Shown here piece after piece: positions 9,279 through 33,639 of a DNA stretch of 33,639 nucleotides (position 1 is its first letter; the number at the start of each line of letters is the position of its first letter). Below the pieces are notes generated by a model. That model was given only the letters and a program-made list of their open reading frames with translations. It was not told where the DNA came from and searched no databases. Position numbers and translations under genes: made by a program. The DNA is from Acidihalobacter prosperus (GTDB lineage: Bacteria > Pseudomonadota > Gammaproteobacteria > DSM-5130 > Acidihalobacteraceae): the NCBI RefSeq assembly GCF_000754095.2, contig NZ_JQSG02000003.1, positions 713,402 to 747,040 on the forward strand, given 5' to 3'.

Positions 9279-9307
9279 CTGGCCACCCGGCTGCCGAAAC
9301 CGCTTGA

Positions 9308-9389
9308 ACAAGCATCCAGCCTACTGCCGGCCGCATATTCCGTCCAGGCATAAGCATGTAATAAATCGATCTTTGTTTGGAATAAGCAT
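9308..9389. promoter_or_regulatory. Candidate CysB-binding direct repeats
   Basis: In the divergent cysB/tauE spacer, ACAAGCAT (9308-9315), ATAAGCAT (9350-9357) and ATAAGCAT (9382-9389) occur in the same orientation. Starts are 42 and 32 bp apart, close to four and three helical turns. Phased repeats of this kind suit a LysR-type tetramer. The repeats are seen; assignment to CysB is inferred from position. Confidence 0.45.
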
Positions 9390-9430
9390 CGTCGGTAGTG
9401 TCTGCAGCGTACTTCACCGCAGGCACGGAC

Positions 9431-10180: not shown

Positions 10181-10199
10181 CCGACCACGAGGACCGCTC

Positions 10200-10913
10200 A
10201 TGTCTGCGCTACCCCATAACCTGCACAACCGGATCGCCCACAGCGTCGAGATTCTGCGTCTCGCCGCAACCGCGGACGCACCCGCGACCTTTGCCAACAG
10301 CCTCGGCGCGGAGGACATCGTGCTGACGGATCTGATCTACCGCCAGGTGCCCGAGATCGACGATTTCATGCTCGATACCGGACGCCTGCCGGCGGAGACC
10401 TACGCGCTGCTGGAACAGGTGCGCGCGCGCTACGGCCGCGCCCCGCGTATCTACTGCCCGGACACCGAGGCGCTCGAAACCTTCGTCAACGCGTTCGGCG
10501 CGAATGCGTTCTACGACAGCGTGGCGCTGCGCAAGCGCTGCTGCGCGATCCGCAAGATCGAGCCGCTGCGCCGCGCCCTGCATGGATACAAGTCCTGGGT
10601 GACGGGCCTGCGCCGCGAACAGTCGGTGACCCGGCTCGCCCTGGACGTGCGCGAATGGGACGAGGGCAACGGCCTGTTCAAGTTCAATCCGCTGGCCGAC
10701 TGGAGCGAGGCGGAAATCTGGGGATACATCCGCAGCCGCGATCTGCCCTACAACACGCTGCACGACCGGCATTACCCCAGCATCGGCTGCGCACCCTGCA
10801 CGCGCGCCATCGCGCAGGGCGAGGACGTGCGCGCGGGACGCTGGTGGTGGGAGCAGCCCGAATCCAAGGAATGCGGCCTGCACCGCTACGTCGACGGGAA
10901 CGCGAGCGCATGA
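10200..10913 (+). CDS. cysH: Assimilatory APS reductase (4Fe-4S type)
   Basis: A 237-residue phosphoadenylyl/adenylyl-sulfate reductase-family enzyme. The P-loop-like nucleotide site includes FANSLGAEDIVLTDLI, and DTGRLPAETY follows (about 32-70). Two cysteine pairs, RKRCCAI (Cys114/115) and GCAPC (Cys197/200), ligate the 4Fe-4S cluster. They mark the APS-using form (EC 1.8.4.10), because E. coli-type PAPS reductases lack them. The catalytic Cys is in KECGLH (Cys225). It reduces APS to sulfite with thioredoxin or similar. ATG 10200 follows GAGGA at about 8 nt. The stop overlaps the cysJ start (ATGA). APS specificity agrees with the absence of cysC (APS kinase) from the operon. Confidence 0.93.
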   Translation: MSALPHNLHNRIAHSVEILRLAATADAPATFANSLGAEDIVLTDLIYRQVPEIDDFMLDTGRLPAETYALLEQVRARYGRAPRIYCPDTEALETFVNAFGANAFYDSVALRKRCCAIRKIEPLRRALHGYKSWVTGLRREQSVTRLALDVREWDEGNGLFKFNPLADWSEAEIWGYIRSRDLPYNTLHDRHYPSIGCAPCTRAIAQGEDVRAGRWWWEQPESKECGLHRYVDGNASA

Positions 10914-17842: not shown

Positions 17843-18205
17843 GGGGTTAAGCCAGCAAGGCTAGTTTCTGTTTCGGGGTGATGCCTCCAAGGGCCATGTT
17901 CGGCCGTTCGTGGTTGTAGGTCCAGAGCCAGCGCGTGGCGAAGTTCTGGACCTCGTGGATCGATTCGAACAGGTATTGCCCCAACCAGTCATAGCGTACC
18001 GTGCGGTTATAGCGTTCGATGTAGGCGTTCTGCTGCGGCTTGCCGGGCTGGATGAAGTTGAGCGCGATCTGGTGTCTGTCGGCCCACGCGGCTAACGTGG
18101 TACTGACGTATTCGGGGCCATAGTACATATCGAAGCATGAGCCGTTGGGCAGCCATCATCGAGAAGAGCATCCTGAGGGTTCTCACACACCACAGGAGAT
18201 TCGCG

Positions 18206-19475
18206 ATGATGACTACCCGCAATGATGCTACGCCAGCGACCACCTGGGTGGCGATCGATATTGCCAAGCGCACCCATGCCGTTCTCATCGAAACGCCTGA
18301 TGGCAAGCATCGGCGCTTCCGGATGAACAGCTTGCAGGAAGACCATCAGCGGTTGGTCGATCTGCTGCATTTGTGCCCTGCTCCGGTTCGTATCGCCTTT
18401 GAACCGACCGGGGATTGCCACCGGACACTGGCGTACCGTTTGCTCAAGGAGGGTTTCGATGTCTGCCTGGTTTCCTCGATCGCTGGCGCTCGTTACCGCG
18501 AGGCGCTGTTCAACTCGTGGGATAAGAACGACCCGAAGGATGCCGCAGTGATCCTCGCCCTGCTCAAGCAGGGCGTTACTCAGCGCTATGCCGATCCGCT
18601 AATCGCCGGCCACCATGGGCTGCGGGAGCTGTCCAAAACCCACTACCAGATCAGTCTGGCCCGAACGCGGCTCCAGCACAACCTGATGACACACTATTTG
18701 CCGCTGTATTTCCCGGAGAGCGAACGCTACTTCCGCTCCACGCTGGCGGAGTGGTTTGCACGCTTCCTGATCCGTTTCCCGACGGCGGCCTCAGTGCGTG
18801 CGTTGTCCTTTGAGGCGTTCGAGCGCGAGGCCTGGGACGTGGTTGGGCGCAAGGTCAACAAACGCTCCTGGATTCGGGAACTGTACGATACGGCGTGTGC
18901 CAGCATTGGCTTGCCGATCGCTGGCGACGATGTGGCCATCGAGACGTTTCGGCTCCAACTGCGCCGTTATCAGCAACTGATCGAACAACGCGAGGCCCTG
19001 GCCGAGACCGCGCATCGCCTGCTGCGGGGACGCCCCGATTACGAGTCGTTGCGATCCATTCCCGGTATAGGGCCTGTGCTCGCCCTCACTATCTTGGCCG
19101 AGGCAGGCGATTTGCGCCCACCGGCAGTTTCTCAAGTACTGCGGCCTGGATTTGTCCAAGTCGCAATCAGGCCAGTTCCGTGGCCAGGAGAAGTTGTCCA
19201 AGCGCGGCAACGCCAGACTGCGCTTCGCCTTCTGGTTCGCCGCGACCATCGCCGTGCGCATGCGTGAGAACAGCTTCCGGCAAAAGTACGAGCGTTATGT
19301 GCAACCCGACCCGCTCAACGCCGATCGCAAACGCAAAGCGTTGACGGCGGTCGCGGCCAAGATGGCGCGGGTCGCTTACAGCCTGGTCAAGCATCGAACC
19401 ACGTACCACTGTTATTTCGAAACGAGTTTGCCCCGTGGATCGACCCCTCTCTGTAGGGCCGTTGGGACCGATTAG
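18206..19475 (+). pseudogene. IS110-family recombinase/transposase, frameshifted
   Basis: ATG 18206 follows AGGAG at 7 nt. The N-terminal RuvC-like DEDD domain is clear: TTWVAIDIAKRTHAV (first Asp), IAFEPTGDCHRTLAYRLL (Glu) and NSWDKNDPKDAAVI (two Asp). The C-terminal Transposase_20 domain starts at SLRSIPGIGPVLALTILAEA. Near 19114-19122, after GDLR, the frame is lost: the natural continuation QFLKYCGLDLSKSQSGQFRG, with the serine-containing catalytic region, is in another frame running to 19475. The expected linker between DLR and QFLKYCG is several residues longer in the family, so a small deletion is the likely lesion. Confidence 0.85.
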
Positions 19476-19703
19476 GATCCCGTAGATAATGTTCGGGCCT
19501 TCCACGGGACCCCATGCTGTTTTAAGCACGGTCGAGGCCGCTTGGCGGACCTCGTGTTCACTATGGGTTAGATCAGGGGATATTTTCGATCGTGGAAGCC
19601 CACGGGCATCGTTCGATAGCGGCGGATACAGCCATTCAAGGACGTCCAGCACGGCCTAGGCTGCTTTCGCCTGTACCTCAGCGCTTGACTCTACAGTTAG
19701 CAC
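19476..19703 (+). ncRNA. Candidate guide (bridge) RNA region at the IS110-family right end
   Basis: A non-coding stretch of 228 bp with visible pairing. CGAGGCCGC (19533-19541) pairs with GCGG plus CCTCG (19545-19554). CGTGG and CCACG form a small hairpin around 19585-19600. CTTCCACG near 19500 can pair with CGTGGAAG in the same later stretch. IS110/IS1111 elements encode a structured RNA in a non-coding end that pairs with donor and target DNA. The stems are seen; the RNA itself is inferred from family and position. Confidence 0.35.
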
Positions 19704-20251
19704 GTTGTCGCAGCGGATGGCCTGCGGCGCACCGCGCCATTCGATGAGCTGATCCAGCGCGCGCACAACCCGCTCGGCGGGCAGCGAGAAGTCGACCTCG
19801 ATGCACAGTCCTTCGCGGTTGTAGTCGTCGATGACGTTGAACAACCGATATGTGCGCCCGTCCTGTAGGCTGTCGTGCATGAAGTCCATCGACCAGTTCT
19901 GGTTGATCGCCTCAGGCACGGCCAGCGGTTCGGGCCTCTCGCGCACGATCCGCCGTTTGGGCTTGATCCGCAGATTGAGCTCCAGCTCCCGGTAGATGCG
20001 GTACACGCGCTTGTGGTTCCAACCAAAGCCCTTGACGTTGCGCAAGTGCAGGAAGCACAGCCCAAAGCCCCAGTTGCGCTGGTTGTGCGTGAGCCGAACC
20101 AGCCAGTCGGCGATCCGTGCGTTCTCTTGCGACAGCTTCGCCTGGTACCGATAACACGTCTGGCTGATGCCAAACGCCCGGCAGGCCTGAGCGATGCTGA
20201 TACCCCGTTGCGCCACACAGGCTCGGGCCCTCTCCCGGCGCGAAGAGGGCC

Positions 20252-20518
20252 TTACCATTTTCCCTCGAGCGCTTCCTTGCGAACCCCCGAGATCAGCCGT
20301 TCCTCGGCGTACATCTTCTTCAACCGCCGGTTCTCATCCTCAAGTTCCTTGAGTCGGGCCATCAGTGAGGCATCCATGCCACCGTACTTGGCCCGCCACT
20401 TGTAGAACGCGGCGCTACTCATGCCGTGCTCGCGGCACAGCTCAGGCACGGGCGTGCCGGCCTCGGCCTGCTTGAGAATGCCAATGATCTGACTGTCCGT
20501 GTAACGCGATTTCTTCAT
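20252..20518 (-). CDS. IS3-family orfA (helix-turn-helix protein)
   Basis: An 88-residue protein reading [20 protein letters not shown], then [20 protein letters not shown], then [20 protein letters not shown] with a leucine-zipper-like tail ([13 protein letters not shown]). This is the HTH_Tnp_1 pattern of IS407/IS51-like IS3 elements. It binds the element ends and, in intact elements, joins OrfB by a -1 frameshift. It overlaps the start of orfB by 7 bp. It is intact itself, but its partner orfB is split, so the element cannot move without help in trans. Confidence 0.9.
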
Positions 20519-20551
20519 GCAGAATCTCCTTGACCTTGAGTATCGGAAAAT

Positions 20552-20589
20552 TCCACTTCTGAACGCTACTACTTTGTGGGGGGATTACC
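20552..20589 (-). repeat. Right terminal inverted repeat of the IS3-family element
   Basis: On the minus strand, GGTAATCCCCCCA begins at 20589 and GTTCAGAAGTGGA ends at 20552. It mirrors the left end at 17806-17842. Confidence 0.8.
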
Positions 20590-20656
20590 GGGCGGGATAG
20601 CGCATTCTCGATGAATCGGAACGCAGACAGTGATTCAGGGCTTTAATCAACGGCAA

Positions 20657-20887
20657 TCAAATCCACTCATTATCCTGGACCATCATATTCTTAAAATTTT
20701 CCATTTCAGAGGAATCTGTGCGGCCACAAGATTGAGAGCACACGAGTTTTTTATACAATGTGACGCTTAACAAAACATGGGTGGGTTCGCCGCGCGTGGT
20801 GATAAAGACAAGCCCATCATCGGCTATATTTTTGGCTTTCCCAGCGTTACGAGTAAATTTCCTGCTTGCGATTACAGTGACTTTCAT
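20657..20887 (-). CDS. Phd/YefM-like antitoxin, apparently orphan
   Basis: A 76-residue protein from ATG 20885-20887: MKVTVIASRKFTRNAGKAKN, then GLVFITTRGEPTHVLLSVTL and YKKL. This fits the Phd/YefM fold (typical family pattern: SSREFNQDTSRAKKAA, GPVFITDRGRPAHVLL, YQKL). Such antitoxins bind DNA through the N-terminus and neutralise PIN-domain, Doc or RelE toxins with the tail. The tail (SSEMENFKNMMVQDNEWI) is unlike common ones. The frame is open upstream to 21043, but only this start gives the family N-terminus. CACTAT is repeated about 10 bp apart just upstream on this strand, a possible operator. The toxin expected downstream is absent: the IS3 end begins 67 bp after the stop. Confidence 0.72.
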   Translation of the reverse strand: MKVTVIASRKFTRNAGKAKNIADDGLVFITTRGEPTHVLLSVTLYKKLVCSQSCGRTDSSEMENFKNMMVQDNEWI

Positions 20888-20950
20888 AAAGCACCATAGT
20901 GTGAAATCTATAGTGTTGCAAAACTTTCGCATTTTTGCCCGTGTAACGAC

Positions 20951-20984
20951 GCATGCGCGCCTCTTGCCTAAGAGGCGCGCATGC
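20951..20984. terminator. Perfect 15-bp hairpin
   Basis: GCATGCGCGCCTCTT (20951-20965), loop GCCT, and the exact complement at 20970-20984. It lies 16 bp downstream of the lipoprotein stop on the minus strand and before the antitoxin gene, so it probably ends the oxidase operon transcript. No U tract follows on either strand, so it may instead be an mRNA-stabilising stem. Confidence 0.6.
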
Positions 20985-20999
20985 TGATCCATGAAAACT

Positions 21000-21383
21000 T
21001 TATTTTCTATATCGTATAGCGACAGCGTTGAGGATTGGCACACTAACCGGCGGCCTCACCACAGCTTGAGTTCGGTGAGGCATTCTGTATACCTCTCTTC
21101 TAGACATCGCATGGGTGAGTTTCGACACGATAATGGCATCGGCGCCTATATTTTTTGCCTTAGATATCATATCAGCCAACAAAGTCTTATAACTCATGCC
21201 AGGTATACCGGTGGTTTTTAGCTTTGCGATAACCACATAGGGTTTTTGCGGAGGCACTTGCAACACAGAAACTGCTTTAGTTGGCAGAAATTTTTTTCCA
21301 CCATCACCATATATGGCATTTGTCGTGGCGCAGCCACCCAGAAAAATCAAAACAACGAATGATACAAGGTATTTTGAGAGCAT
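21000..21383 (-). CDS. Small lipoprotein of unknown function
   Basis: A 127-residue protein with a lipoprotein signal: MLSKYLVSFVVLIFLGGCA, lipobox LGGC with Cys18. The mature part has VLQVPPQKPYVVIAKLKTTG, then MISKAKNIGADAIIVSKLTH, ending NAVAIRYRK. This alpha/beta pattern with KA..LGADA resembles small envelope proteins such as YbjQ- or DUF4156-like proteins, but I cannot name the family. A strong AGGAG site lies 7 nt before the ATG. It is the last gene of the minus-strand oxidase operon, 37 bp after the DoxX-like gene, and is followed by a perfect hairpin. It probably resides in the outer or inner membrane leaflet facing the periplasm. Confidence 0.75.
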   Translation of the reverse strand: MLSKYLVSFVVLIFLGGCATTNAIYGDGGKKFLPTKAVSVLQVPPQKPYVVIAKLKTTGIPGMSYKTLLADMISKAKNIGADAIIVSKLTHAMSRREVYRMPHRTQAVVRPPVSVPILNAVAIRYRK

Positions 21384-21420
21384 GATGCATCTCCTTTTTA
21401 GTATGATTCCGGATGATGAT

Positions 21421-22404
21421 CTACTTGGATTCGCCAGAGGCTATCAAGGCCTCGGCTTCCATCAAGCCAGCACGCCTTGGCCAGCGATACAAAACCATAA
21501 GCAGAACGAATATGAAAAAATAAATGATCGCATTACCGAACATATTACCCGGCATGCCAGTCACCCCATTTCCATAGGGCCCTCCAAATCTCTCTGCGGT
21601 CGACCACACCATAAGTGAGAATGCTGCTCCAACAGGCAAAAAATACCGCATGAGTCGACCAGATAACAAACTCCAGGCTATGGACGCCTCGGTAAGAGCA
21701 GCAAGGACACCAAACAAAGTGGGATCGATGCCTCTGATCAAGTCGATCCAGACTTGCAGATATGAAACCAGCCATGCAGGCTGATCTTGTTGCGCGTCGA
21801 CCAAATACCCTATGAAATGATTGACGAAATAAGGATGCCATTTAAACAACGCATCCCATGCCCATAAAAACCCGAAAAAATAGCGAGCCGCATGCAGCCA
21901 AAGCAATATGTGATCATGCTTGGTATGCGCATTTGATGATGTGATCGGCTGACTGATTCTCCAAGTTGTATAGACGAGGATCATCGCGATGGTATAGGGA
22001 GGGGCTATTCCAGCATCCGTGCCACCAGTAGCCGGATTGAAATCGCCCAGGTGCTCAACACCCACCCACATTCCGAACATATACACGATACATATCCACA
22101 ATGTGGACCTTAGCCCTCTTCCTAACAACAAGGTCAGCGCGATGTAAAGATCAATCAGTACAATGCCATTTCCGGCGAGATGAACCTGCCACGCAGACAT
22201 CGGCAACCCAATAAAATGCGCCACTGATTCCTTATTGGCTCCAGATGAGGCATTCCAGGTGTTATAAAGCCAGATAATGCCGAAGATCACGCGCAAATAG
22301 GCGAAAATCATGCTCTGTGCTGGAGTCGATACTGGCGGAATATGCTTAGGTGCATGATGATCAAAACCTAGACATCGGAAAATATTCTGCGTTGTGTTTG
22401 ACAT
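21421..22404 (-). CDS. DoxX/DoxD-like integral membrane protein
   Basis: A 327-residue protein with about eight hydrophobic segments, among them FAYLRVIFGIIWLYNTWNA, IDLYIALTLLLGRGLRSTLW, PYTIAMILVYTTWRI, YFFGFLWAWDALFKW, and near the end FGNAIIYFFIFVLLMVLYRW. The RVxxGxxWL beginning, the W-rich second helical bundle and FGGPYGNGVTGMPGNMFGN near the end resemble DoxX/DoxD proteins. DoxD is the large subunit of thiosulfate:quinone oxidoreductase in sulfur-oxidising acidophiles. Its usual partner DoxA is not visible, so enzyme assignment stays open; a plain DoxX-family membrane protein is equally possible. It sits between the barrel and lipoprotein genes in one operon. Confidence 0.6.
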   Translation of the reverse strand: MSNTTQNIFRCLGFDHHAPKHIPPVSTPAQSMIFAYLRVIFGIIWLYNTWNASSGANKESVAHFIGLPMSAWQVHLAGNGIVLIDLYIALTLLLGRGLRSTLWICIVYMFGMWVGVEHLGDFNPATGGTDAGIAPPYTIAMILVYTTWRISQPITSSNAHTKHDHILLWLHAARYFFGFLWAWDALFKWHPYFVNHFIGYLVDAQQDQPAWLVSYLQVWIDLIRGIDPTLFGVLAALTEASIAWSLLSGRLMRYFLPVGAAFSLMVWSTAERFGGPYGNGVTGMPGNMFGNAIIYFFIFVLLMVLYRWPRRAGLMEAEALIASGESK

Positions 22405-22461
22405 ATCACTCCCCTGCTAACCCCTCTCCGGAGAATACCGCCGGAGAGTGGCATGGCTCAG

Positions 22462-23715
22462 TTAAGGCAAATACCCATGCTCGGTATTGAGCAGGCTCGT
22501 TCGATTACCGAAATAGTCGTTCGATGTCGTGCCGAAATCGTATGCCAGACCTACGGTGACCGTGCTGTTACTCTTCAAATCAGCACCTTGTCCGTTAATC
22601 GAATATTGCAGCCCGCCATGATTACGAAGATAAGCGTATTGCGCTATCAGACTGGTGTTGGCACCCAGGCGGTAGGTGATGTTGGGCACGATGCTGTACC
22701 TGCTGGCAGATACACCGTCAAAGCGCTGATAAGCAATCGTGAGCGCTAGTTGCAGACGTGGCACCAAGTATGGAGATCGAACACGACGCAAGGACACAAC
22801 ATAAGCCTGCGATCGCGCCTGAGCCTGTGATTGAACGGTAGAAACCGAGTGGACACCTGCCCCTTGATTGGAGATCGCTTGAAAACGCAGATCCCAGTGG
22901 TCGATAGGGTCTCGATTCAGATTGATCACACCACCGAACACGTAGCTGTATACATGCTGTCTATTCGGGAGATTACGCACATCCTGGTAATACACTTCGG
23001 CGCCCAGCTGCCGAAGCCAACTGGCATAACGATTTCCAGGTGACAACTCGTAATTGACCTGTATGCCGCCACTGTTGAAAGAATATCGATCAAGCAACTG
23101 TCCCGTCGAGCTCGTTTCGAATTGATGCGACGCAAACCCGGTCAACCTTAGGCGGCTATGGAGCCAGTAGTAGCTTCCTTTCAGCACATCCCCGTATTGC
23201 GAATATTCCGAGACAGCAGTATTGATCATCGCATTGGGGACTTGCGTGTACTCAATCAAATCACTGTCCCTCAACGTTGGGAATGCAATTAGGTAATTAG
23301 GGAGTGATGTACGACCTATGCGCATCCCCCAATGCTGGGATTCAAGGAAGACATTGACCTGGTGGTAGAAAACCGGCCCGATACCGGAACCGGCATCAGG
23401 AAAACGCAGACCAAGCAGCATCCCGCCGTGGATACCTGAATAAAGTCGACTGTCAAATTGAGCATCCAGAAACGAATCTGAATAATTGATCATGCTGCCG
23501 GGCTGGCTGCCGCCGACCGTTAAATCAGACGTTGACCCGTCAGCCGTAGCGATGCCTCTTCCCATTATGCTTACGCGTGGCGCGACAGAGGAAGTGCCGA
23601 CCGAGCGCATGAAAGAAGTGTCACCGAACGCAGTTGGAGCATGGACCATCAGAAACGCAGCCACTGCGATGCTGGATCGGCGGATTCCATTCGATAGATA
23701 TTCAATAATTAGCAT
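22462..23715 (-). CDS. Outer-membrane beta-barrel (porin-like) protein
   Basis: A 417-residue exported protein. The signal peptide is RRSSIAVAAFLMVHAPTAFG, with cleavage near residue 31. The mature chain alternates hydrophobic and polar residues in many strands (LYSGIHGGMLLGLRF, LRLTGFASHQFETSS, IQVNYELSPGNRYASW, LQLALTIAYQRF, SLIAQYAYLRN, STVTVGLAYDFG), has no cysteine in the barrel and is rich in Tyr, Ser and Asn, as outer-membrane barrels are. I cannot assign a family. It lacks the terminal Phe; the last strand ends at AYDFG, followed by a 20-residue tail. It begins 15 bp after the oxidase stop, with a GGGGG-rich leader. It may admit metal or a sulfur compound to the oxidase, or be a structural pore. 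Confidence 0.7.
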   Translation of the reverse strand: MLIIEYLSNGIRRSSIAVAAFLMVHAPTAFGDTSFMRSVGTSSVAPRVSIMGRGIATADGSTSDLTVGGSQPGSMINYSDSFLDAQFDSRLYSGIHGGMLLGLRFPDAGSGIGPVFYHQVNVFLESQHWGMRIGRTSLPNYLIAFPTLRDSDLIEYTQVPNAMINTAVSEYSQYGDVLKGSYYWLHSRLRLTGFASHQFETSSTGQLLDRYSFNSGGIQVNYELSPGNRYASWLRQLGAEVYYQDVRNLPNRQHVYSYVFGGVINLNRDPIDHWDLRFQAISNQGAGVHSVSTVQSQAQARSQAYVVSLRRVRSPYLVPRLQLALTIAYQRFDGVSASRYSIVPNITYRLGANTSLIAQYAYLRNHGGLQYSINGQGADLKSNSTVTVGLAYDFGTTSNDYFGNRTSLLNTEHGYLP

Positions 23716-23730
23716 GATTAACTATCCCCC

Positions 23731-25056
23731 TTATTCGTCAATGGCAGTAAGTGGCGCATAGCCGCCGACGAAATCCTCATATTCGAGAGTCGTCAGCATT
23801 CCGCCTGGGTAAACACCATTGTTTGTCACGCGTGTCGTGTCATGATCGTGGAACGTCCAGACACCCGGGTTGTTGCCATAAACGACAATATCGGCAGTTT
23901 TCCCTGGCTTCACAGCGATAGTATTCCCTCGTATCGGCGCCGGTAGCAGCGCGCCATCATTGGCAACCTGATAGAAATCATGCCCATGCAGATGCATGTA
24001 ATGCTCCAAAAAACCACCATTGATCAACCTAATTCGGATCCATTCTCCCGGCTTGATCAACAAGGGACTCGTTGCAGGATAGCTTTTTCCATTTATGCCA
24101 AAAAAATTCCAATTTGGCAGAACGGAACCACCTTGATTCCTGTTTTGACTATACGGAGGAATATATCCCGCCTTTATATGTTTCTTCAGATCGCCATAAT
24201 TACGAAAAACGGCCAGCGTTTCCTTGGAAAGCTTATGCAATTTCATAAGCCTCATCTTTTCCTTCATACGTTCCAGCATTGCATTGAAGCCCTGGCGCGC
24301 GTAATCCAGAGCGAATGCCTCAAGCACCATGGTGTAATCACGGGCGTATGGGAATTGCTTTCGCACCGGATCGTCCTTGGACTCGACGATAAATGCACCA
24401 TGCATACCTTGTGCTTGATGCAACGGAGTCGAGAAGTGGCAGTGATAGAAATGTGTGCCATAGGGTGCTGCTCGAAATTTATAAACGAACTTCTGACCTG
24501 GCATCAGTGGAGGTTGGGTAGTGTATGGAACACCATCCATCTCATACGGCGAGAATAGACCATGCCAATGAATGGTATGCATCAAGCCCGTTTTGTTCGT
24601 GAAAACCACTTTTACCCAATCACCTTCCTGAACGCGTATTTCTGGACCGGGAACTTGCCCATTGAAGGCCAGCGCGTGCATTTTTACGCCGTCTACCAGT
24701 TCATGCTCGGTCAACACCACATCTATATGGAACGTTTTGAACTCAACTTCGCTCTCACTGGGTATATTTTCATACGTGTACAGCGGCGAAATATCCCTCC
24801 CCACCCGCATGGCACCACCAAATCTATTCCTGGGATCGTTGTATCCAGGGCCCCCATCCAGCTTTTTTCCAGGCACTGGTCGAAAAGCACCACCCGGTAT
24901 TGGAATGCCTCCGGGGCGGCCGGCTGGTATCACCGACGTACTGGCTGATGATGAAATATTTGCGTCATTAATGCCTTCTGCCTGAGCCGTGCGCGAACCC
25001 AGGGCACCCAGGGCCAATCCCGCCGCACCGGATTTGATGAAATGTCTACGATCCAT
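23731..25056 (-). CDS. Two-domain multicopper oxidase, type 1 copper in domain 1
   Basis: A 441-residue Tat-exported enzyme (MDRRHFIKSGAAGLALGALG; a longer frame to 25134 would bury the twin arginines). Four HxH motifs for a trinuclear copper site are present: MHTIHWHG (His163, 165), YHCHF (His205, 207), HYMHLHGHDF (His355, 357) and FHDHD (His403, 405). The type 1 set is complete only in domain 1, where YHCHFSTPLHQAQGM supplies Cys206, His213 and Met218. In the C-terminal domain the usual HCHxxxH reads HDHDTTR, so Cys is Asp404. This matches two-domain laccases with the blue site in domain 1 ('type C'). A basic helical insertion (about residues 255-305) is unusual. Substrate unknown: Cu(I), a phenol or another reductant is possible. 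Confidence 0.82.
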   Translation of the reverse strand: MDRRHFIKSGAAGLALGALGSRTAQAEGINDANISSSASTSVIPAGRPGGIPIPGGAFRPVPGKKLDGGPGYNDPRNRFGGAMRVGRDISPLYTYENIPSESEVEFKTFHIDVVLTEHELVDGVKMHALAFNGQVPGPEIRVQEGDWVKVVFTNKTGLMHTIHWHGLFSPYEMDGVPYTTQPPLMPGQKFVYKFRAAPYGTHFYHCHFSTPLHQAQGMHGAFIVESKDDPVRKQFPYARDYTMVLEAFALDYARQGFNAMLERMKEKMRLMKLHKLSKETLAVFRNYGDLKKHIKAGYIPPYSQNRNQGGSVLPNWNFFGINGKSYPATSPLLIKPGEWIRIRLINGGFLEHYMHLHGHDFYQVANDGALLPAPIRGNTIAVKPGKTADIVVYGNNPGVWTFHDHDTTRVTNNGVYPGGMLTTLEYEDFVGGYAPLTAIDE

Positions 25057-25233
25057 TCGATTAATCCTCGCTATGTACGCGTCATTCTGGCCATACAGAG
25101 CCGTACGCCCATGTGACGCACACTTGATTTTCATCAGATAACGGGCAGAACCAGCTTTCGCCGGTTGTACTACGTCGTCACTGAGATTGTGTTTGCTGCG
25201 CGAAGCGCTGGCTTCGCGAGAAATGAGTCAGAC
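25057..25233. other. Spacer inside the oxidase operon
   Basis: About 177 bp between the small exported protein and the oxidase. It holds GAGG before ATG 25056 and no recognisable gene. An extended oxidase frame runs through the first part of it but would lose the Tat signal. Confidence 0.35.
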
Positions 25234-25581
25234 TTAGATCGAGCGAGGAGGTTTGATCGGAGGGGGGTATACGCGTGAATGCAGCGCATTTTTTTCTGCG
25301 ACTGATACCCAGTTGATAGGAGGATAGATGGGGAGAGTGTGTAGTGAAATCAAAGCCGCGCACGATGCCGCATTTCCGGAGCAGCAGCCCCACCCTATTG
25401 GATTGTTGGATGCGTGCCCTGTCGGCGCCGGTGCGGCGGTTTGGGTCATCGTTCTTGCGTAGGCATGACGGGCATTACCGCTGGCAGCATGGCTGGTCAT
25501 TAAAGCGGCGCGCAATGGGCTGCCTGCCATGACTACGACAAGCAACAGGAGTACGCAGCGTTGAAGGTACCTCAATGACAT
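25234..25581 (-). CDS. Small exported Cys/Pro-rich protein
   Basis: A protein of about 115 residues. MSLRYLQRCVLLLLVVVMAG followed by SPLRA is a signal peptide (cleavage near residue 25). The mature part has His- and Met-containing stretches, GWGCCSGNAASCAAL (three cysteines, possible metal site), and ends VYPPPIKPPRSI. Small periplasmic proteins with a Cys cluster and a Pro-rich tail are common next to copper and heavy-metal genes, but I do not recognise the family. Neither the ATG at 25581 nor a TTG at 25647 has a good ribosome site; I chose 25581 because the signal peptide then starts directly. It would be the first gene of the oxidase operon, about 95 bp from a CueR-like promoter. Confidence 0.5.
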   Translation of the reverse strand: MSLRYLQRCVLLLLVVVMAGSPLRAALMTSHAASGNARHAYARTMTQTAAPAPTGHASNNPIGWGCCSGNAASCAALISLHTLPIYPPINWVSVAEKNALHSRVYPPPIKPPRSI

Positions 25582-25675
25582 TTGCGATGTGCTAGTTGCG
25601 CATTTGATGTGATTGCAAAGGTAAAGGTATTGGTATTTGAATCCCAAGCATTAGATGGAGATGAGCCATATTGCT

Positions 25676-25707
25676 ATGATAAACATTGAAGTTAGCTACA
25701 AGGTCAA
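25676..25707 (-). promoter_or_regulatory. CueR/MerR-type promoter for the oxidase operon
   Basis: On the minus strand: TTGACC (25707-25702), a 20-bp spacer, then TATCAT (25681-25676). The overlong spacer is the hallmark of MerR-family activation. It contains the dyad ACATTG-N10-CAAGGT (plus strand 25683-25704), 18 of 22 identical to the copA operator. Confidence 0.65.
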
Positions 25708-25762
25708 TAGGCCTCTCCAGATTTTTCGCTATCTCCATGTCTGCATACTTACGCGACAGCCC

Positions 25763-25794
25763 TTGACATTGAACCTAGCAACAAGGCTTAAACT
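25763..25794 (+). promoter_or_regulatory. CueR/MerR-type promoter for copA
   Basis: TTGACA (25763-25768), a 20-bp spacer, TAAACT (25789-25794). The dyad ACATTG-N10-CAAGGC covers 25766-25787. This is the standard architecture of CueR-controlled copA promoters. The regulator gene is not in the window. Confidence 0.7.
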
Positions 25795-25869
25795 GGTTCT
25801 CACAGCATACAACGCACGAAAACTTTCTCCTGAAAGCTGCAATTTCAATATCCGATACTGAGAGAACCG

Positions 25870-28349
25870 ATGAACTTGAAACTAAAGCCAGAGACGAATT
25901 ATATGTCGCTACAGATCGGCGTGGAAGGCATGACCTGCGCCTCCTGCAGCGCGCGCGTCGAACGGGGATTGCGGAAATTGCCTGGCGTAGCCGAAGCCAA
26001 TGTGAATCTTGCTACTGAGCGCGCGGAAGTGCGTTTCGATCCTCAGCGACTCACTCCGGCTCGGGTCGTGGATGCGATTCACGAGACTGGCTATACGCCA
26101 GTGAGCGGCGAGGTTGATCTGGAAATCGAAGGTATGACCTGCGCCTCCTGCGTAGGACGGGTTGAACGCGCATTGAAGCGAACACGCGGCGTGTTGGATG
26201 CCAGGGTGAACCTCGCCACTGAGCATGCACACGTGCAATACCTGCCTGCCATGATCGATCCTGAGTCGCTTGCCGCAGCCGTGGACGAAGCCGGCTACAC
26301 TGCGCATCCCTTGAATGGGACCGATGTGGCGGATACGAACAAGCGGCGTGCTTCCCTGCGCGCCATGGGGCGAGATGTAGCCATTGCTGCAGGCCTTGCC
26401 GCGATCATCCTGATGCTGTCTATGGGAAGCACCTTCATCCCGGTCTTCAATCGCGCGTTGCAAACGGCAAGTCCATTCCCACATTTCTGGGATTGGGTGC
26501 AGTGGCTATTCGCCACGGTAGTACTATTCGGCCCTGGACTGCGTTTTTTCCGCCCTGGCTGGATTGCCTATCGGCATCTGTCACCAGACATGAATTCGCT
26601 GGTTGCCACCGGCACCGGCGCAGCTTGGGTTTATAGTACGTTGGTGCTACTGGCCCCAACACTCTTCCCAGCGGCAGCACGGCACGTGTACTTTGACTCT
26701 GCGGCAGTAGTGATCGCCGCGGTCTTGTTCGGGAAATATCTGGAAGAATTGGCTAAGGGCCGCACCTCCTCTGCGATCCGCAAGTTGCTAGGCTTACAAG
26801 CCAAAGCTGCGCGTCGACTGGAAGCCGACGGATCTGAAGTTGAGGTACCAATGGCACAACTGCGCATCGGCGACCGCGTGGCAGTGCGTCCGGGTGAGCG
26901 CATTCCGCTGGACGGGCAAGTGGTCGAAGGCCATGCCCATGTGGACGAATCCATGCTCACCGGTGAACCTTTGCCGATTGCCAAGGGCGTGGACGACTAC
27001 GTTGTAGGCGGCACTGTGAACCGGGACGGGCGACTGGTGATCAAGGCCACCTCGGTAGGCCGTGACACCGTACTGGCGCAGATTATCAAACTGGTGGAAA
27101 GCGCGCAGACGGGCAAACTGCCGATCCAAGGGGTAGCCGACCGCGTGGTACGCATATTCTCGCCAGTGGTGATCGCCATCGCGCTCGTCACCTTCAGTGT
27201 ATGGCTGCTACTCGGCGCGAACATCAGCGTGGCACTGGTTTCCGCTGTGGCGGTTTTGGTGGTGGCCTGCCCTTGCGCCATGGGCTTGGCCACGCCAGCG
27301 GCGATCATGGTAGGCACCGGGCGCGCGGCGGAACTGGGTGTGCTGTTTCGCAAGGGCGATGCGCTGGAGACACTCTCGCGCGTCGATACCATTCTGTTCG
27401 ACAAAACCGGTACTCTGACCGAAGGTCGGCCATCGCTGGGCGCTGTCGAAGGGCGGCAGACCGATGAGGCCCTGCGTCTGGCCGCAGCGCTGGAAGCAGC
27501 CTCTGAGCATCCGCTGGCACGGGCCATCGTCGAGGCAGCCAAGGAACGCCAACTCGCCCCCCCTCTGTTGAAGACTTCCAGGCCGTGGCCGGCTATGGCA
27601 TCGAGGGGGTGATCGAAGGTCGGCGCATTCTGGTCGGCGCACGGCGCTTCATGGAACGCGAAGGTGTGGAAACTGGCGCGTTCGTCGCGCGGGCTTCGGA
27701 ACTGGAGGCAGAAGGCAGTACCGTCGTGTTCGTTGCCGCCGACAGTCAGGCGCTGGGAATACTTGCCATTACCGACCGCATTAAACCCGAGGCGCGTGCG
27801 CTGGTAGATGCCTTGCGCCAACGGGGTCTGCGCGTGGCTATGGTCACCGGCGATGCGCGCCGCACCGCTGAGGCGGTGGCCGCCAGACTTGCCATAGAAG
27901 ATGTCCATGCGGAAGTTCTGCCGCAGGACAAGGCCAAGGTGGTCACCGAACTGCAAGAGACCGGCCGACGTATGGCTTTCGTCGGAGATGGGATCAATGA
28001 CGCCCCGGCATTGGCGCAGGCCGACGTCGGCATCGCTCTGGCAAGCGGCACCGACATCGCCATCGAGGCGGCAGATGTGACCCTGACCCGTGGAAAGCTT
28101 GGCGAAGTAGTCACTGCACTGGACGCGGCACGCAAAACCCTGAGCAACATCCGCGGCAATCTGTTCTGGGCTTTTTTCTACAACATTCTACTAATCCCGA
28201 TCGCCGCCGGCGTGGCCACGCCCATCGGTATCCATCTCAACCCCATGCTGGCCGGCGTCGCCATGGGTCTGTCCTCGATCTTCGTGCTCGGCAACAGTCT
28301 ACGCCTGAAGCGCCTACGCGCATGGCGGATCGCGGCGGCAGCCGCATAG
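25870..28349 (+). pseudogene. copA: Copper-exporting P1B-type ATPase, frameshifted
   Basis: It encodes a Cu(I)-ATPase of about 825 residues in two frames. Two N-terminal HMA domains each carry GMTCASC (about residues 20 and 90). Then come the membrane region, the TGE actuator loop (MLTGEPLPI), the intramembrane [14 protein letters not shown], the phosphorylation site [18 protein letters not shown] (nucleotide site), and GDGINDAPALAQADVGIALA. After LAPP the frame breaks at a run of seven C (27557-27563). Adding one C would restore [20 protein letters not shown] and an intact gene ending at 28349. As given, frame 1 stops at 27612. The lesion could be a real inactivation, a slippage switch or a sequencing error. 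ATG 25870 lies about 75 bp after a CueR-type promoter. Confidence 0.88.
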
Positions 28350-28382
28350 TTCAACAATCCATTGCAAAAAGGAGGGGGCACC

Positions 28383-28781
28383 ATGAGCAAAATCGTATTT
28401 TCCGTCACCAGTCCCGAGAATTACGTCACCGCTGTCGAGCACGTCACCGAGGCGCTCAAGAGTGAAGGCTTCGGCGTGCTCACCACCATCGATGTGTCCG
28501 CCACGCTGAAAGCCAAGCTCGGAGTGGAGCACAAGCCTTACGCCATTCTCGGCGCCTGCAATCCGCACTACGCCCACCAGGCACTGGAAGCCGTTCCGGA
28601 CATCGGCGTGCTGCTGCCCTGCAACGTCGTGGTGCGCGAGGAGGAGGACGGCCGCGTGAGCGTGGTGTTCATGGATCCCGAATCGGTGCTGGGCCTGATC
28701 GCCGATCCCGCCGTCGAGAAAGTTGGACATGAAGGGGCCGAGAAGTTGCAGCGCGTGGCCGAAGCCGTGGGCAAGGACTGA
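28383..28781 (+). CDS. DUF302 domain protein
   Basis: A 132-residue protein with the DUF302 core: ALKSEGFGVLTTIDVSATLK, then PYAILGACNPHYAHQALEAV and GVLLPCNVVVREEEDGRVSV, ending with VFMDPESVLGLI. DUF302 proteins are small, soluble and often sit beside metal-resistance or sulfur genes; the conserved Cys residues in LGACNP and LLPCNV suggest redox or metal chemistry, but no function is established that I can name. ATG 28383 is preceded by AGGAGGGGG. It follows copA by 33 bp and precedes copZ by 35 bp, so it belongs to the copper operon. Confidence 0.88.
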   Translation: MSKIVFSVTSPENYVTAVEHVTEALKSEGFGVLTTIDVSATLKAKLGVEHKPYAILGACNPHYAHQALEAVPDIGVLLPCNVVVREEEDGRVSVVFMDPESVLGLIADPAVEKVGHEGAEKLQRVAEAVGKD

Positions 28782-28816
28782 ACCTTTACCTCGTCCAGGA
28801 TACCCAGGAGACGCAC

Positions 28817-29023
28817 ATGAGCACAATCAATCTGAAGATCACCGGTATGACCTGCGAGCACTGCGTGCGCGCCGCCATCAAGGCGCTGGAAGGCGTGCCC
28901 GGCGTGGAAAAGGCCGAGGTCACCCTGACCCCGGGTGGTGCCGTGGTGCATGGCAAGGCCGACCCGCAACAACTGATCGCAGCGGTCAGAGAAGAAGGCT
29001 ACAACGCCGAAATGCGGGGCTAG
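28817..29023 (+). CDS. copZ: CopZ-like copper chaperone (HMA domain)
   Basis: A 68-residue stand-alone heavy-metal-associated domain: INLKITGMTCEHCVRAAIKA, then LEGVPGVEKAEVTLTPGGA. The metal site is MTCEHC; its C-E-H-C form differs from the CASC of the copA domains. CopZ proteins carry Cu(I) in the cytoplasm and deliver it to CopA or to the regulator. AGGAG precedes the ATG. It lies between DUF302 and a glutaredoxin-like gene in the copA operon. Another soft metal is possible, but the context makes copper most likely. Confidence 0.88.
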   Translation: MSTINLKITGMTCEHCVRAAIKALEGVPGVEKAEVTLTPGGAVVHGKADPQQLIAAVREEGYNAEMRG

Positions 29024-29026
29024 ATC

Positions 29027-29266
29027 ATGACCAATGTCCTGCTCTACACCAGCCCGGGCTGCCCGGACTGCGCCGCCGTCAAACGCTATCTCGAAGTGCG
29101 CGGGGTTGCCTTCGAGGAACGCGACGTGACCCTGCCGTGCGTGGCCGAGGAGGCCAAATCCCGCTACGGCGTGCGCGTCGCGCCAATCACTGTGATCGGC
29201 GAGAAAGTGCTATACGGCACCTTCGCCGACCAGAAACCGCGGCTCGATGCCGCACTCGGCGACTGA
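29027..29266 (+). CDS. Glutaredoxin-like protein
   Basis: A 79-residue thioredoxin-fold protein: LLYTSPGCPDCAAVKRYLEV carries the CPDC redox motif, and GVRVAPITVIGEKVLYGTFA has the cis-proline (AP) and the glutathione-side strand. This resembles NrdH/glutaredoxin-family proteins of about 75-80 residues. A third Cys is in TLPCVAEE. It starts 3 nt after copZ, so the two are coupled; a role in keeping copper-ligating cysteines reduced is inferred, not shown. Confidence 0.85.
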   Translation: MTNVLLYTSPGCPDCAAVKRYLEVRGVAFEERDVTLPCVAEEAKSRYGVRVAPITVIGEKVLYGTFADQKPRLDAALGD

Positions 29267-29596
29267 ACGCCGCCTCATCGAGAGGAAAATGGAACTGAAC
29301 AGGAAATTCATTGAACGATTTACGCTGGCCGCCACCTGCGTCGCGCTCGCTGTCCCGCCTGCCTTTGATTAGGGCATGATAGGCTCGGTCAACAACCACC
29401 CCGTGACCCCGAAATGGAGCGGTGCAACCCGGGCATCCCGACACCGCCTTCGAAGTGCGCGGCATCACCAATCCGACTCTGGTGGTGCCGGCCGGCGCGA
29501 CCGCGCATCTCAATCTCGTCAACATGGACTGCGGCAACAACATGGAACACGGCGTTATTATCACCCGGGTACCGCCGCCGTATCAGCGTAACCTCA

Positions 29597-29599
29597 GGA
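29597..29599 (+). repeat. 3-bp target-site duplication (left), GGA
   Basis: GGA directly before the IS3-family end TGTAGTGG; its partner is 30836-30838. Confidence 0.85.
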
Positions 29600-30835
<1,236 letters not shown>

Positions 30836-30838
30836 GGA
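30836..30838 (+). repeat. 3-bp target-site duplication (right), GGA
   Basis: GGA directly after the IS3-family end CCACTACA; partner of 29597-29599. Confidence 0.85.
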
Positions 30839-31062
30839 TGCCGACCGGCACCGGGCTGGCCGGTATCGCGCCACCGATTCCCTGGCGCAGCAAGAAAGAC
30901 CTGAGTCAGTCCCTGTTCGCTGCCTGCCGGCCCCCTTTCACCACGTCAGGGCATGCCGAGAAAGACATGTGCGACAAGTTTGTGGTCATCGGATGAGGAT
31001 ACGAAGATGTTATATGGAAACGGTCTGGAAGGATTTTTTGGCGCAATGTGGGGGTACCGATC

Positions 31063-31266
31063 ATGGGATTTCTGATTATGCTGGCGGTGCTGGCCGCGGT
31101 GGTCTGGGTGGTCGTCGCGGTAGGGCGTTCGGCCTGGAAGGGGCGAGAAGCGCCACCGACGCTGCCGCGCCACGACAGCGCGCTAGAGGCGCTGCGCGAA
31201 CGCTACGCCCGCGGCGAGATCGACCGCGAGACCTTCGATCGTATGCGGCGCGATATTGAGCGCTGA
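31063..31266 (+). CDS. Small membrane-anchored SHOCT-domain protein
   Basis: A 67-residue protein: one membrane helix (MGFLIMLAVLAAVVWVVVAV), a short linker and a SHOCT motif (LEALRERYARGEIDRETFDR, about 43-62). SHOCT segments often end small metal- or stress-related membrane proteins and may mediate oligomerisation; the job here is unknown. GGGGG 8 nt upstream can serve as ribosome site. However, an ATG at 31007 with a better site (GAGGAT) opens MLYGNGLEGFFGAMWG, which would run into this frame if one G were added to the G5 run at 31050-31054. So the present start may be the result of a frameshift. Confidence 0.7.
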   Translation: MGFLIMLAVLAAVVWVVVAVGRSAWKGREAPPTLPRHDSALEALRERYARGEIDRETFDRMRRDIER

Positions 31267-31290
31267 ACCGATACAATGAGATAACCCACC

Positions 31291-31560
31291 GTGCATCCAA
31301 GTATTCTGACATGGATCGCCTGGATCGCACTGGTTTCAGGCGTTGCAACGGCCATCGCCATCATTGCCGCCTTGCTCGTGCTACCCCCGTCGGCACGCCC
31401 CCAAAAAACCTTTGCCCAAGCAGCAAATCACCACACATTGGCAACGCATCGCATCAATTCCGTTACTTCCAAATGGCTAGATGCATCTCGACAAATGGAG
31501 ATAGCAACGATGGTTCAGAGAATATGCGGGTGGGGAAAACCAACAAAGAGAGAGATATAA
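31291..31560 (+). CDS. Small membrane protein, possible truncated DUF4396 remnant
   Basis: Starts at GTG 31291: MHPSILTWIAWIALVSGVAT, then AIAIIAALLV, a membrane helix, after which the chain (ARPQKTFAQAANHHTLATHR) is low-complexity and not protein-family-like. The first 30 residues resemble the N-terminus of DUF4396 membrane proteins, which frequently accompany multicopper oxidases. The conserved MWIMN.VWP region of that family is missing. No ribosome site stands out. It is probably a 5' gene fragment, and the last two thirds may be non-coding leader of the next oxidase. Confidence 0.35.
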   Translation: MHPSILTWIAWIALVSGVATAIAIIAALLVLPPSARPQKTFAQAANHHTLATHRINSVTSKWLDASRQMEIATMVQRICGWGKPTKREI

Positions 31561-31561
31561 C

Positions 31562-33181
31562 ATGACAACGCGCAAAGATATTGATCCTACAAGACGGCGA
31601 TTGCTTCAAGGTCTGGCAGCCGGTGGCGTACTAGCCATCGGGTTGGGATCGCGGTCGACGCGCGCGCAAGGAGGGATGATGGGCGGTTCCATGATGGAGC
31701 ACGCCACGATCAATGATACGACCGTGCCCGGCATCTTCTCGCGCCCGCTGCCGGTGCCGCCCCAACTTCATGGGAAGGCCGACGCGCGGAGCGTGTTGCA
31801 CTATGCGCTGCGCGCGGGCGGCGGTCACAGCAAGCTGGTCGACGGCGTACGCACGCTCACTTGGGGCTACAACGGCGCGCTACTCGGCCCCACCCTGAGA
31901 GTGCCACGCGGCAAACCCTTGCAAATGTGGATCGCCAACGGCCTTGGTGTATCTACAACCTTGCACTGGCACGGTGCCCAGGTGCCAGGAGAAGTGGACG
32001 GCGGGCCGCACAATCTGATCACGCCCGGTGCCGTCTGGACACCGGCCCTCACGCTGGACCAACCGGCCGGCACGCTGTGGTATCACCCCCATCCCGACAC
32101 CTACACCGGCCCGCAGGTGTATGCCGGGCTGGCGGGCTTCCTGCTGATCGATGATGGCGAGGATGAGCGGCTCGGACTGCCGCACACCTACGGCGTGGAC
32201 GACATCCCGCTGGCCATCCAGGATCGGCGATTGGACGGTTCGGGGAGGCTCGTCTACATGAATCGGATGCCGGACATGATGGGCATGAAGGGCGACCGCT
32301 TTCTGGTCAACGGCGTTGAGCAGCCCTATGCGCAAGTCCCGGCCGGCTGGCTGCGACTCCGCCTACTTAACGGTTCGAACGCGCGCATCTACAATTTGGC
32401 CTTCGCCGATGACCGTGAATTCCATGTGATCGCCGGCGACGCCGGACTGTTGGAGCAACCAGTAGCGTTGCGCAGCCTACTGCTGGCCCCGGCTGAGCGG
32501 GCCGAGATATTAGTGGACCTGCGCCTCGAGCAGGGGCGGTCGCTGGTTTTGCGCAGCGATTCCAGTGCAGCGGTACCCGATCTCTACCGCATGCCCATGG
32601 CCGCCGATGCCTACGACCGCGGGCGTTTCGATCTGCTGCAACTGCGCGTGGGCTCGCCATCGGGTCAGACTACCCATCTACCCGCGCGGCTGATCGCCGC
32701 GCCGACCTTGCTTGCGGATGGTCCAAAACACGACTTCACGTTGAACGGCATGATGGGCATGATGGGCATGATGGGCGGAGGTTTCGGTGGTGGCCGCACG
32801 GCGGATGGCCCGGGCGGCATGAGCATGGGCATCGGCGGACGGGATCTGTTTGCCATCGATGGGCACTATATGCGCATGGACGTCATCGACCTGAAAACAC
32901 CGCTCGGGCGCACTGCACATTGGCGCGTGCGCAACAGTAGCACCATGGCGCACCCCTTCCATGTGCATGGTACCTCGTTCCTCATCCGCAGCCGCAACGG
33001 AAACCCACCGTCGGCGCACGAGAGTGGCTGGAAGGATGTGGTACTAGTGCGCCGTGGCGAGACCGTAGAGCTGCTCGCGCCCTTCCATCATCGCGCCGAC
33101 GCCAAGCACCCTTACATGTATCACTGCCATATCCTAGAACACGAGGATAACGGCATGATGGGACAGTTCACGGTAACCTAA
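31562..33181 (+). CDS. CueO-like Met-rich multicopper oxidase
   Basis: A 539-residue three-domain oxidase with a Tat signal (PTRRRLLQGLAAGGVLAIGL). All four copper motifs are intact: TTLHWHGAQVPG, LWYHPHPDTYTGPQ, MAHPFHVHGTSF, and YMYHCHILEHEDNGMM with the type 1 Cys, His and Met. A Met- and Gly-rich insertion before the last domain (NGMMGMMGMMGGGFGGG, around 32740-32790) and the Met-rich start of the mature protein (GGMMGGSMMEH) match CueO/CopA-type periplasmic cuprous oxidases, where such segments bind extra Cu(I). It oxidises Cu(I) to the less toxic Cu(II). GAGAGAG lies 7 nt before ATG 31562. It closes the copper cluster. Unlike the oxidase at 23731-25056, its type 1 site is C-terminal. 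Confidence 0.92.
   Translation: MTTRKDIDPTRRRLLQGLAAGGVLAIGLGSRSTRAQGGMMGGSMMEHATINDTTVPGIFSRPLPVPPQLHGKADARSVLHYALRAGGGHSKLVDGVRTLTWGYNGALLGPTLRVPRGKPLQMWIANGLGVSTTLHWHGAQVPGEVDGGPHNLITPGAVWTPALTLDQPAGTLWYHPHPDTYTGPQVYAGLAGFLLIDDGEDERLGLPHTYGVDDIPLAIQDRRLDGSGRLVYMNRMPDMMGMKGDRFLVNGVEQPYAQVPAGWLRLRLLNGSNARIYNLAFADDREFHVIAGDAGLLEQPVALRSLLLAPAERAEILVDLRLEQGRSLVLRSDSSAAVPDLYRMPMAADAYDRGRFDLLQLRVGSPSGQTTHLPARLIAAPTLLADGPKHDFTLNGMMGMMGMMGGGFGGGRTADGPGGMSMGIGGRDLFAIDGHYMRMDVIDLKTPLGRTAHWRVRNSSTMAHPFHVHGTSFLIRSRNGNPPSAHESGWKDVVLVRRGETVELLAPFHHRADAKHPYMYHCHILEHEDNGMMGQFTVT
32750..32776 (+). repeat. Three tandem 9-bp repeats ATGATGGGC
   Basis: Three exact copies in the oxidase gene encode the MMG triplets of the Met-rich loop. 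Copy number could vary by slippage without breaking the frame. Confidence 0.85.
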
Positions 33182-33210
33182 GCAGCGTGTTTTACAGGCA
33201 TTGGTTATGC

Positions 33211-33228
33211 TAGTGTCTGCTCACACTA
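33211..33228. terminator. Weak inverted repeat after the CueO-like gene
   Basis: TAGTGT (33211-33216), loop CTGCTC, ACACTA (33223-33228), 30 bp past the oxidase stop. The stem is short and no T tract follows, so terminator function is only possible. Confidence 0.3.
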
Positions 33229-33233
33229 ATGAG

Positions 33234-33639
<406 letters not shown>

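Follow-up and report, generated by a model that had tools for sequence, protein, structure and literature searches.

Divergent MerR-type promoters with 20-bp spacers point to copper control of a two-domain multicopper oxidase operon in Acidihalobacter prosperus

The copA operon and the multicopper oxidase operon that diverge from positions 25582-25869 of the window (the whole stretch of Acidihalobacter prosperus DNA analysed, 33,639 nucleotides) are probably both under MerR-type activation, with a regulator encoded on another contig (C6) of the same genome (G000) acting in trans and Cu(I) as the likely signal. More confidence attaches to this reading for the oxidase operon than for the copA operon. 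Sequence evidence in this way places the little-described envelope module headed by the two-domain multicopper oxidase in a copper regulon. The features of both sides are:

21000..21383, minus strand: lipoprotein, 51% identical in the congener G001, whose copy matched YbjQ at E 0.0085, below the cut-off
21421..22404, minus strand: DoxX-like membrane protein, matching DoxX at E 0.2 only, well under the cut-off; 70% identical in G001
22462..23715, minus strand: probable outer-membrane barrel protein, with a Porin_4 match below the cut-off; 76% identical in G001
23731..25056, minus strand: two-domain multicopper oxidase with a twin-arginine signal; likely start MDRRHF, the ORF extending to 25134
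25234..25581, minus strand: small cysteine-rich protein (115 aa, signal-like N-terminus), encoded first in the oxidase operon
25676..25707, minus strand: oxidase-operon promoter, TTGACC (25707-25702), 20-bp spacer, TATCAT (25681-25676), with a 22-bp MerR-type predicted operator inside
25683..25704, minus strand: oxidase-side imperfect dyad of 22 bp, ACCTTGTAGCTAACTTCAATGT (plus-strand letters ACATTGAAGTTAGCTACAAGGT), 8/11 pairs self-complementary
25762..25794, plus strand: copA-operon promoter, TTGACA (25763-25768), 20-bp spacer, TAAACT (25789-25794), with a 22-bp predicted operator inside
25766..25787, plus strand: copA-side imperfect dyad of 22 bp, ACATTGAACCTAGCAACAAGGC, 6/11 pairs self-complementary
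25870..28349, plus strand: copA Cu(I) P-type ATPase in two frames, 25870-27612 and 27585-28349
28362..28781, plus strand: DUF302 protein (1.5e-27)
28817..29023, plus strand: CopZ-like HMA metallochaperone of 68 aa, recognised in translation (GMTCEHC); gene order as in the congener G002
29027..29266, plus strand: glutaredoxin-like protein of 79 aa, labelled by reading its translation and not by family search; gene order as in G002

A sequence-only reading of this DNA had listed the oxidase, barrel, DoxX-like protein and lipoprotein as one operon but had overlooked the cysteine-rich protein encoded first, and it had missed the split of copA into two frames. Proteins encoded at the corresponding position in G001 and G002 are 39% and 33% identical to the cysteine-rich protein, which gave no Pfam match even at E 10 and no NCBIfam family when a 112-aa cut was searched; a suspected likeness to CopL/DUF2946 was dropped after searches of NCBIfam and Pfam gave no confirmation. 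The oxidase matched Cu-oxidase_3 (4e-34) and Cu-oxidase_2 (7e-29) in Pfam, while its TAT signal scored below the cut-off. These matches, at residues 146-254 and 338-434, correspond to two Cu-oxidase domains and no third, so that the protein belongs to the two-domain type, in which it differs from CueO. The nearest solved structures, 3g5w and 2zwn, are likewise two-domain oxidases and share an HCH-x5-H-x4-M type-1 site in the first domain, as judged by reading, but the protein encoded here has a longer N-terminus with a twin-arginine signal, and an outer-membrane barrel gene comes after its own. Just ahead of the copA frame break are seven consecutive C (27557-27563); the frame change (27557-27620) may reflect a genuine lesion, a slippery tract or an error of the draft assembly. 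Another multicopper oxidase, CueO-like and with a Met-rich stretch, was also observed at 31562-33181 (PRK10965 CueO 9e-134, below the cut-off), with no R1 or R2 site (profiles described below) directly ahead of it. Passages of PMC7760498 name copA and oxidase genes of Acidihalobacter and mention neither CueR nor promoters, and no literature on promoters of this oxidase operon was found, which is no proof of absence.

The intergenic stretch 25582-25869 carries both divergent promoters, TTGACC-TTGTAGCTAACTTCAATGTT-TATCAT on the minus strand and TTGACA-TTGAACCTAGCAACAAGGCT-TAAACT on the plus strand, with their -35 boxes facing each other and the starts of these 56 bp apart. Direct reading bore out the 20-bp spacers and -10 boxes claimed for the two promoters by the sequence-only reading, and a script comparison agreed with direct reading on its two 22-bp dyads at 25683-25704 and 25766-25787: compared on one strand these have 18 of 22 letters in common, although the promoters diverge, and only 14 of 22 match if each dyad is read starting at its own -35 box. 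Their half-sites start ACCTTGTAG, ACATTGAAG, ACATTGAAC and GCCTTGTTG. The similarity of the pair is by itself weak evidence and not rare, the window holding two overlapping placements of direct 22-mer pairs with at least 18/22 identity within 150 bp, against a mean of 0.43 (maximum 5) in 100 copies of the window generated by a first-order Markov model. The sites owe their significance to their placement within promoters and to the profile searches described below. In both promoters the dyad lies between -35 and -10 boxes that are 20 bp apart, within the 19-20 bp typical of metal-activated promoters of the MerR family. No promoter-like site with a 16-18-bp spacer was found in 25582-25869 by a consensus scan of 20600-26000, which gave five such sites overall against 7.7 expected by chance, and Rfam gave no match at gathering thresholds in 20000-33639 of the window.

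Activation by untwisting of DNA is established for the MerR family. Each window site would be the operator of a metal-responsive activator of this family, where the 20-bp spacer would hold the -35 and -10 boxes out of register until metal binding allowed the dimer to untwist the DNA and RNA polymerase to start. The back-to-back promoters would thus serve copA-DUF302-copZ-grx on one side and the genes for the cysteine-rich protein, the two-domain oxidase, the barrel, the DoxX-like protein and the lipoprotein on the other, with Cu(I) as the most likely metal.

The window showed no regulator gene of this type, and the 75 bases that separate copA from its -10 box contain none. Pfam MerR matched ten places in the genome, eight of them above the cut-off. 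The likeliest regulator, which would act in trans, is a 136-aa protein at G000:C6:692733-693140, directly followed by a second copA. Its promoter, TTGACC-CTGTAGTTTACTTTAAGGTG-TAGAGT, also has a 20-bp spacer, and the dyad of this promoter is identical to the oxidase-side dyad at 17 of 22 positions. The metal loop reads CPGHGDTAGC, i.e. C-x8-C, with Met at the position of CueR Ser77. NCBIfam scores of 119.5 (MerR), 119 (ZntR) and 117 bits (CueR) were all below the cut-off and do not name the metal; the best-scoring solved relatives were 4ua1 ('Regulatory protein') and the mercury regulator 5crl. Another candidate regulator, L096, was rejected, as it groups in the mercury clade of the tree described below, from which two mercury-type genes on C7 were left out.

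To place the C6 regulator among its relatives, 369 genomes of the class were searched; 51 contained a relative at E<=1e-28, and 26 new loci were taken, making 33 regulator loci together with seven loci of the family. Upstream of these 33 regulators a 20-bp-spacer dyad promoter scored above threshold in 21 (6/7 of the family and 15/26 of the new loci, one of them doubtful), while spacers of 19, 18 and 21 bp were found in 0, 1 and 0 cases, respectively, and shuffles gave 0.0-0.02 per set. The family locus below threshold was L089 (5/11 pairs), the doubtful new locus was L134 (TTCAC), and L148 and L149 are near copies of each other. A stricter scan of whole loci found the 20-bp spacer in 11/33 and none of the others in the set of four lengths tried.

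Two profiles were made from these promoters, with no window site in the training of either. R1 was trained on seven regulator promoters, those of the family loci, from five genomes (G000-G004), and R2 on 13 promoters of other families only, these being the 15 new loci minus the doubtful L134 and one of the near copies L148/L149. Over the five genomes R1 gave at least 14 matches at E<=10. At least four of these were in G000, where 150 of 203 first-look candidates were scored and further sites may exist: its own training site (genome-wide E 1.9e-7), the oxidase-side promoter (21.8 bits, E 8.1e-4), the copA-side promoter (17.7 bits, E 0.0175) and a 19-bp-spacer site ahead of a gene for a SHOCT-domain protein (E 0.0148). 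Untrained sites were also matched in the congeners, i.e. the promoter facing a cus-like operon (1.6e-6), that of a similar SHOCT-type gene (0.044) and the oxidase promoter (0.13) in G001, and the promoter of the cysteine-rich gene in G002 (0.077). With R2 at least 20 matches were obtained over the five genomes, including all seven regulator promoters, the SHOCT sites, the twin sites of G001 and G002 and the oxidase-side site (18.6 bits, genome-wide E 0.008), as well as reverse-strand readings of some of these sites and two partial matches in G003 (E 0.51 and 0.87). The copA-side site scored 10.8 bits with R2 (E 0.023 for the window alone) and was not among the genome-wide matches listed for G000, for which 150 of 543 first-look candidates were scored and further sites may exist; this weakness indicates that the site has diverged. 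Its match to R1 owes partly to the G002 site in the training set. An operator like that of the C6 regulator-copA pair is recognised on the oxidase side by both profiles, and on the copA side by R1 and weakly by R2.

Further copies of the dyad, for which the sequence-only reading had suggested a genome search, were recovered by R1 at the C6 regulator and the SHOCT-domain gene, whereas the bare pattern ACMTTGN10CAAKG was uninformative (7 rows in the genome versus 6 for the reversed control). The SHOCT sites are MerR-type promoters with 19-bp spacers, one before a gene for an 84-aa SHOCT-domain membrane protein (L125:6428-6458, G000:C2) and a counterpart in G001 (L126:6466-6496); the gene probably belongs to the regulon as well, with a spacer of another length.

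Twin operators were also found in two congeners. The gene order in G001 runs copA-cueR, another ORF, genes for a CusA/CzcA-family pump, its adaptor and an outer-membrane protein, a gene for a 129-aa protein, and then the divergent oxidase operon, which comprises the cysteine-rich protein, the oxidase (87% identical), the barrel, the DoxX-like protein and the lipoprotein. Twin promoters with 20-bp spacers separate the cus-like efflux operon (pump above the NCBIfam cut-off, CusB match below it) from the oxidase operon, which lies about 8 kb from cueR-copA. In G002 twin promoters separate the cysteine-rich gene and a cupredoxin-like gene from cueR-copA-DUF302-copZ-grx. The latter gene, at L127:7848-8696, follows the cysteine-rich gene in place of the oxidase and encodes a protein of 282 aa in which a plastocyanin-like domain was matched (PF00127, E 3.4e-4), possibly a different copper-protein partner behind the same type of promoter. 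The proposal of the sequence-only reading that both operons have MerR-type operators in overlong spacers is supported by R1 for both and by R2 for the oxidase side, weakly for the copA side. Its further proposal, that the oxidase operon is probably part of the copper regulon, does not rest on the dyads alone, since the profiles, the promoter of the C6 regulator-copA pair and the twin operators of the congeners support it; the remark that nothing else said so is contradicted by G001, where this operon diverges from a CusA/CzcA-type efflux operon near cueR-copA. Because the switches match and the same type of switch precedes the C6 sensor gene, the little-described oxidase operon most likely takes part in the copper response.

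The promoter corresponding to the copA-side site in G002 drives cueR-copA, and 25 of 32 letters are common to the two, with -35 box, spacer and -10 box kept (16/22 within the dyad). Window copA, in its two frames, compared at 72 and 76% with copA of G002 and at 70 and 66% with the C6 copA of its own genome. We infer that the window locus formerly had a regulator gene of its own, since lost. The copA side may be decaying, copA being in two frames, and an alternative explanation is that only the oxidase-side operator works, the copA-side site and the broken copA being relics of the loss of the adjacent regulator. The 10.8 bits with R2, the split frame and the missing cueR between promoter and copA would fit this, but the promoter retains its boxes, its spacer and most letters of its G002 counterpart, and the frame break adjoins a C run and may be a sequencing error, the assembly being a draft. 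We regard the relic explanation as rather unlikely, although it is the strongest of the alternatives to MerR-type activation of both operons.

It is less likely still that the same MerR-type switches activate both operons in response to a divalent metal (Zn, Cd, Pb or Hg) instead of Cu(I). The 22-bp dyad within a 20-bp spacer is the geometry of ZntR according to passages of PMC1526738, and the C-x8-C loop resembles that of MerR, the best solved relatives being 4ua1 and 5crl. The ZntR consensus given in the same passages is, however, ACTCTGGAGTCGACTCCAGAGT, and there ZntR sites are absent before zntR and the gene is mostly apart from zntA, whereas a common regulator-copA promoter is found here. 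A copA homologue follows the regulator in 7/7 family loci, copA_N matches were obtained in 20/26 of the further loci, and the CPC motif of Cu(I) pumps is present in every copA-bearing family locus checked and in window copA. At the position equivalent to MerR Cys82 and CueR Ser77, 14 of the 33 regulators carry Met, 10 Ala, 3 Cys, 3 Arg and 3 another residue; this leans to a monovalent metal but is no proof. Among the neighbours, a CusA/CzcA-family pump, CopZ and a multicopper oxidase also argue for Cu(I).

The sequence-only reading had called the operators CueR-like and proposed a genome search for a CueR homologue; this yielded no match to E. coli CueR at E<=1e-28, and the C6 MerR-type regulator falls off the CueR branch. 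Likeness to the E. coli CueR regulon (copA, cueO) lies in a MerR-family operator within an overlong spacer and in a Cu(I) ATPase and a multicopper oxidase as targets. The differences are a spacer of 20 instead of 19 bp, a site of 22 instead of 21 bp, half-sites of ACCYTGTAG instead of ACCTTCC, a C-x8-C instead of a C-x7-C loop, Met for Ser77 and a separate place in the tree. Published CueR/HmrR sites have 19-bp spacers and require ACCTTCC...GGAAGGT half-sites, as stated in passages of PMC1526738. In a control with canonical CueR, 9 of the 369 genomes matched, and promoters were detectable in three loci by the strict and in one more by the relaxed scan, all with 19-bp spacers; the control is small, as five of the nine loci had no detectable promoter. 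The nine canonical CueR rows, a MerR-family protein present in three copies (C1, C6 and C7) and its G001 relative split from all other rows at 97/96, while the C6 regulator lies within a 23-row copA-linked clade (96/92). Neither the 33 regulator rows as a whole nor those linked to copA form one clade, mercury MerR and two other rows falling among the 33. The three-copy protein, which has a long branch and scores best as CueR, below the cut-off, was rejected as the regulator because the promoter beside it, TTGACT-19-TATAAG with a TTGGAGTTAACTCCAAG dyad, differs from the window sites. That canonical CueR or this protein controls the window operons is therefore very unlikely, even though a MerR-family regulator adjoins copA, the outer half-site ACCTT/AAGGT is common to CueR sites and the three-copy protein groups with CueR; spacer length, the inner half-site and, for canonical CueR, the lack of a genomic match at the above threshold stand against it. 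Chance similarity with no regulatory role can practically be dismissed, for although Markov copies contain 0.43 comparable pairs per window, the genome-wide E values of 8.1e-4 and 0.0175 (R1) and 0.008 (R2) come from models without window sites, and a similar arrangement occurs in two congeners.

The recognition helix was also compared. Glu is present in the C6 regulator and in 28/33 regulators overall, and Lys (AKM) at the same position in four canonical CueR rows read by motif search. The half-sites, from 22 sites with both window sites counted, lean to ACCYT(G/A)TAG versus the canonical ACCTTCCCA, most of them having G or A followed by T or A where canonical sites carry CC. In passages of PMC5045206 on MerR-family recognition, Glu pairs with GT and Lys with CC, a pairing that the Glu helix and half-site letters would fit. 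The same passages give 22-bp sites as a mark of the MerR and HMRTR subfamilies and 21-bp sites for CueR; both window sites have the HMRTR-type geometry described there, i.e. 22 bp with the centre 8 bp from the -35 box in a 19-20-bp spacer. By site geometry and pairing, Glu-A being listed there too, the regulator appears to resemble the described HMRTR-type regulators; a difference is that Asp-G/C pairs are listed for gammaproteobacterial members, while here the residue is mostly Glu. Spacer length and half-site letters can set copA-linked MerR-type regulators of other kinds apart from canonical CueR; the label CueR-like can therefore mislead for such sites.

We tentatively suggest, with confidence falling a little short of an even balance, that many Gammaproteobacteria run copA through non-CueR MerR-type activators with a C-x8-C loop, mostly Met or Ala at the Ser77 position, a Glu helix, ACCYTGTAG half-sites and 20-bp spacers, and that the regulator of this genus took on an envelope copper module or a cus-like pump through back-to-back operators, here without a neighbouring regulator gene. 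As copA-linked non-CueR regulators with 20-bp spacers overlap the described HMRTR group, this would be a modest refinement. Among 41 oxidase loci including that of G001 (L044 and L085 being the same contig, and some loci short contigs), a barrel match was present in 36, copA in 12 and an efflux-pump gene (cusA, B or C) in 5. No operator was found in the 40 distant loci without G001 (two on the same contig), either with R1 or R2 at default filters or by a strict dyad scan (TTGAC-TAnnnT) covering as much as 1.2 kb of upstream sequence; the link between operator and oxidase is therefore lineage-bound.

Some further features of these loci were observed. A near-palindrome (CCAAACCTTACAATTGACTTCAAGGTTTGG, minus strand) lies upstream of the cueR promoter of G001 at L083:2549-2578. 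Transposase-like ORFs, which we take to be IS110-like (18137-20518) and IS3-like (29640-30827), are present on both flanks of the copper genes of the window, and the end of the contig is also a transposase-like ORF. The sulfate-assimilation genes at 8294-14275 show 95% DNA identity to G002, where they are also located near the copper locus, with the relative orientation inverted.
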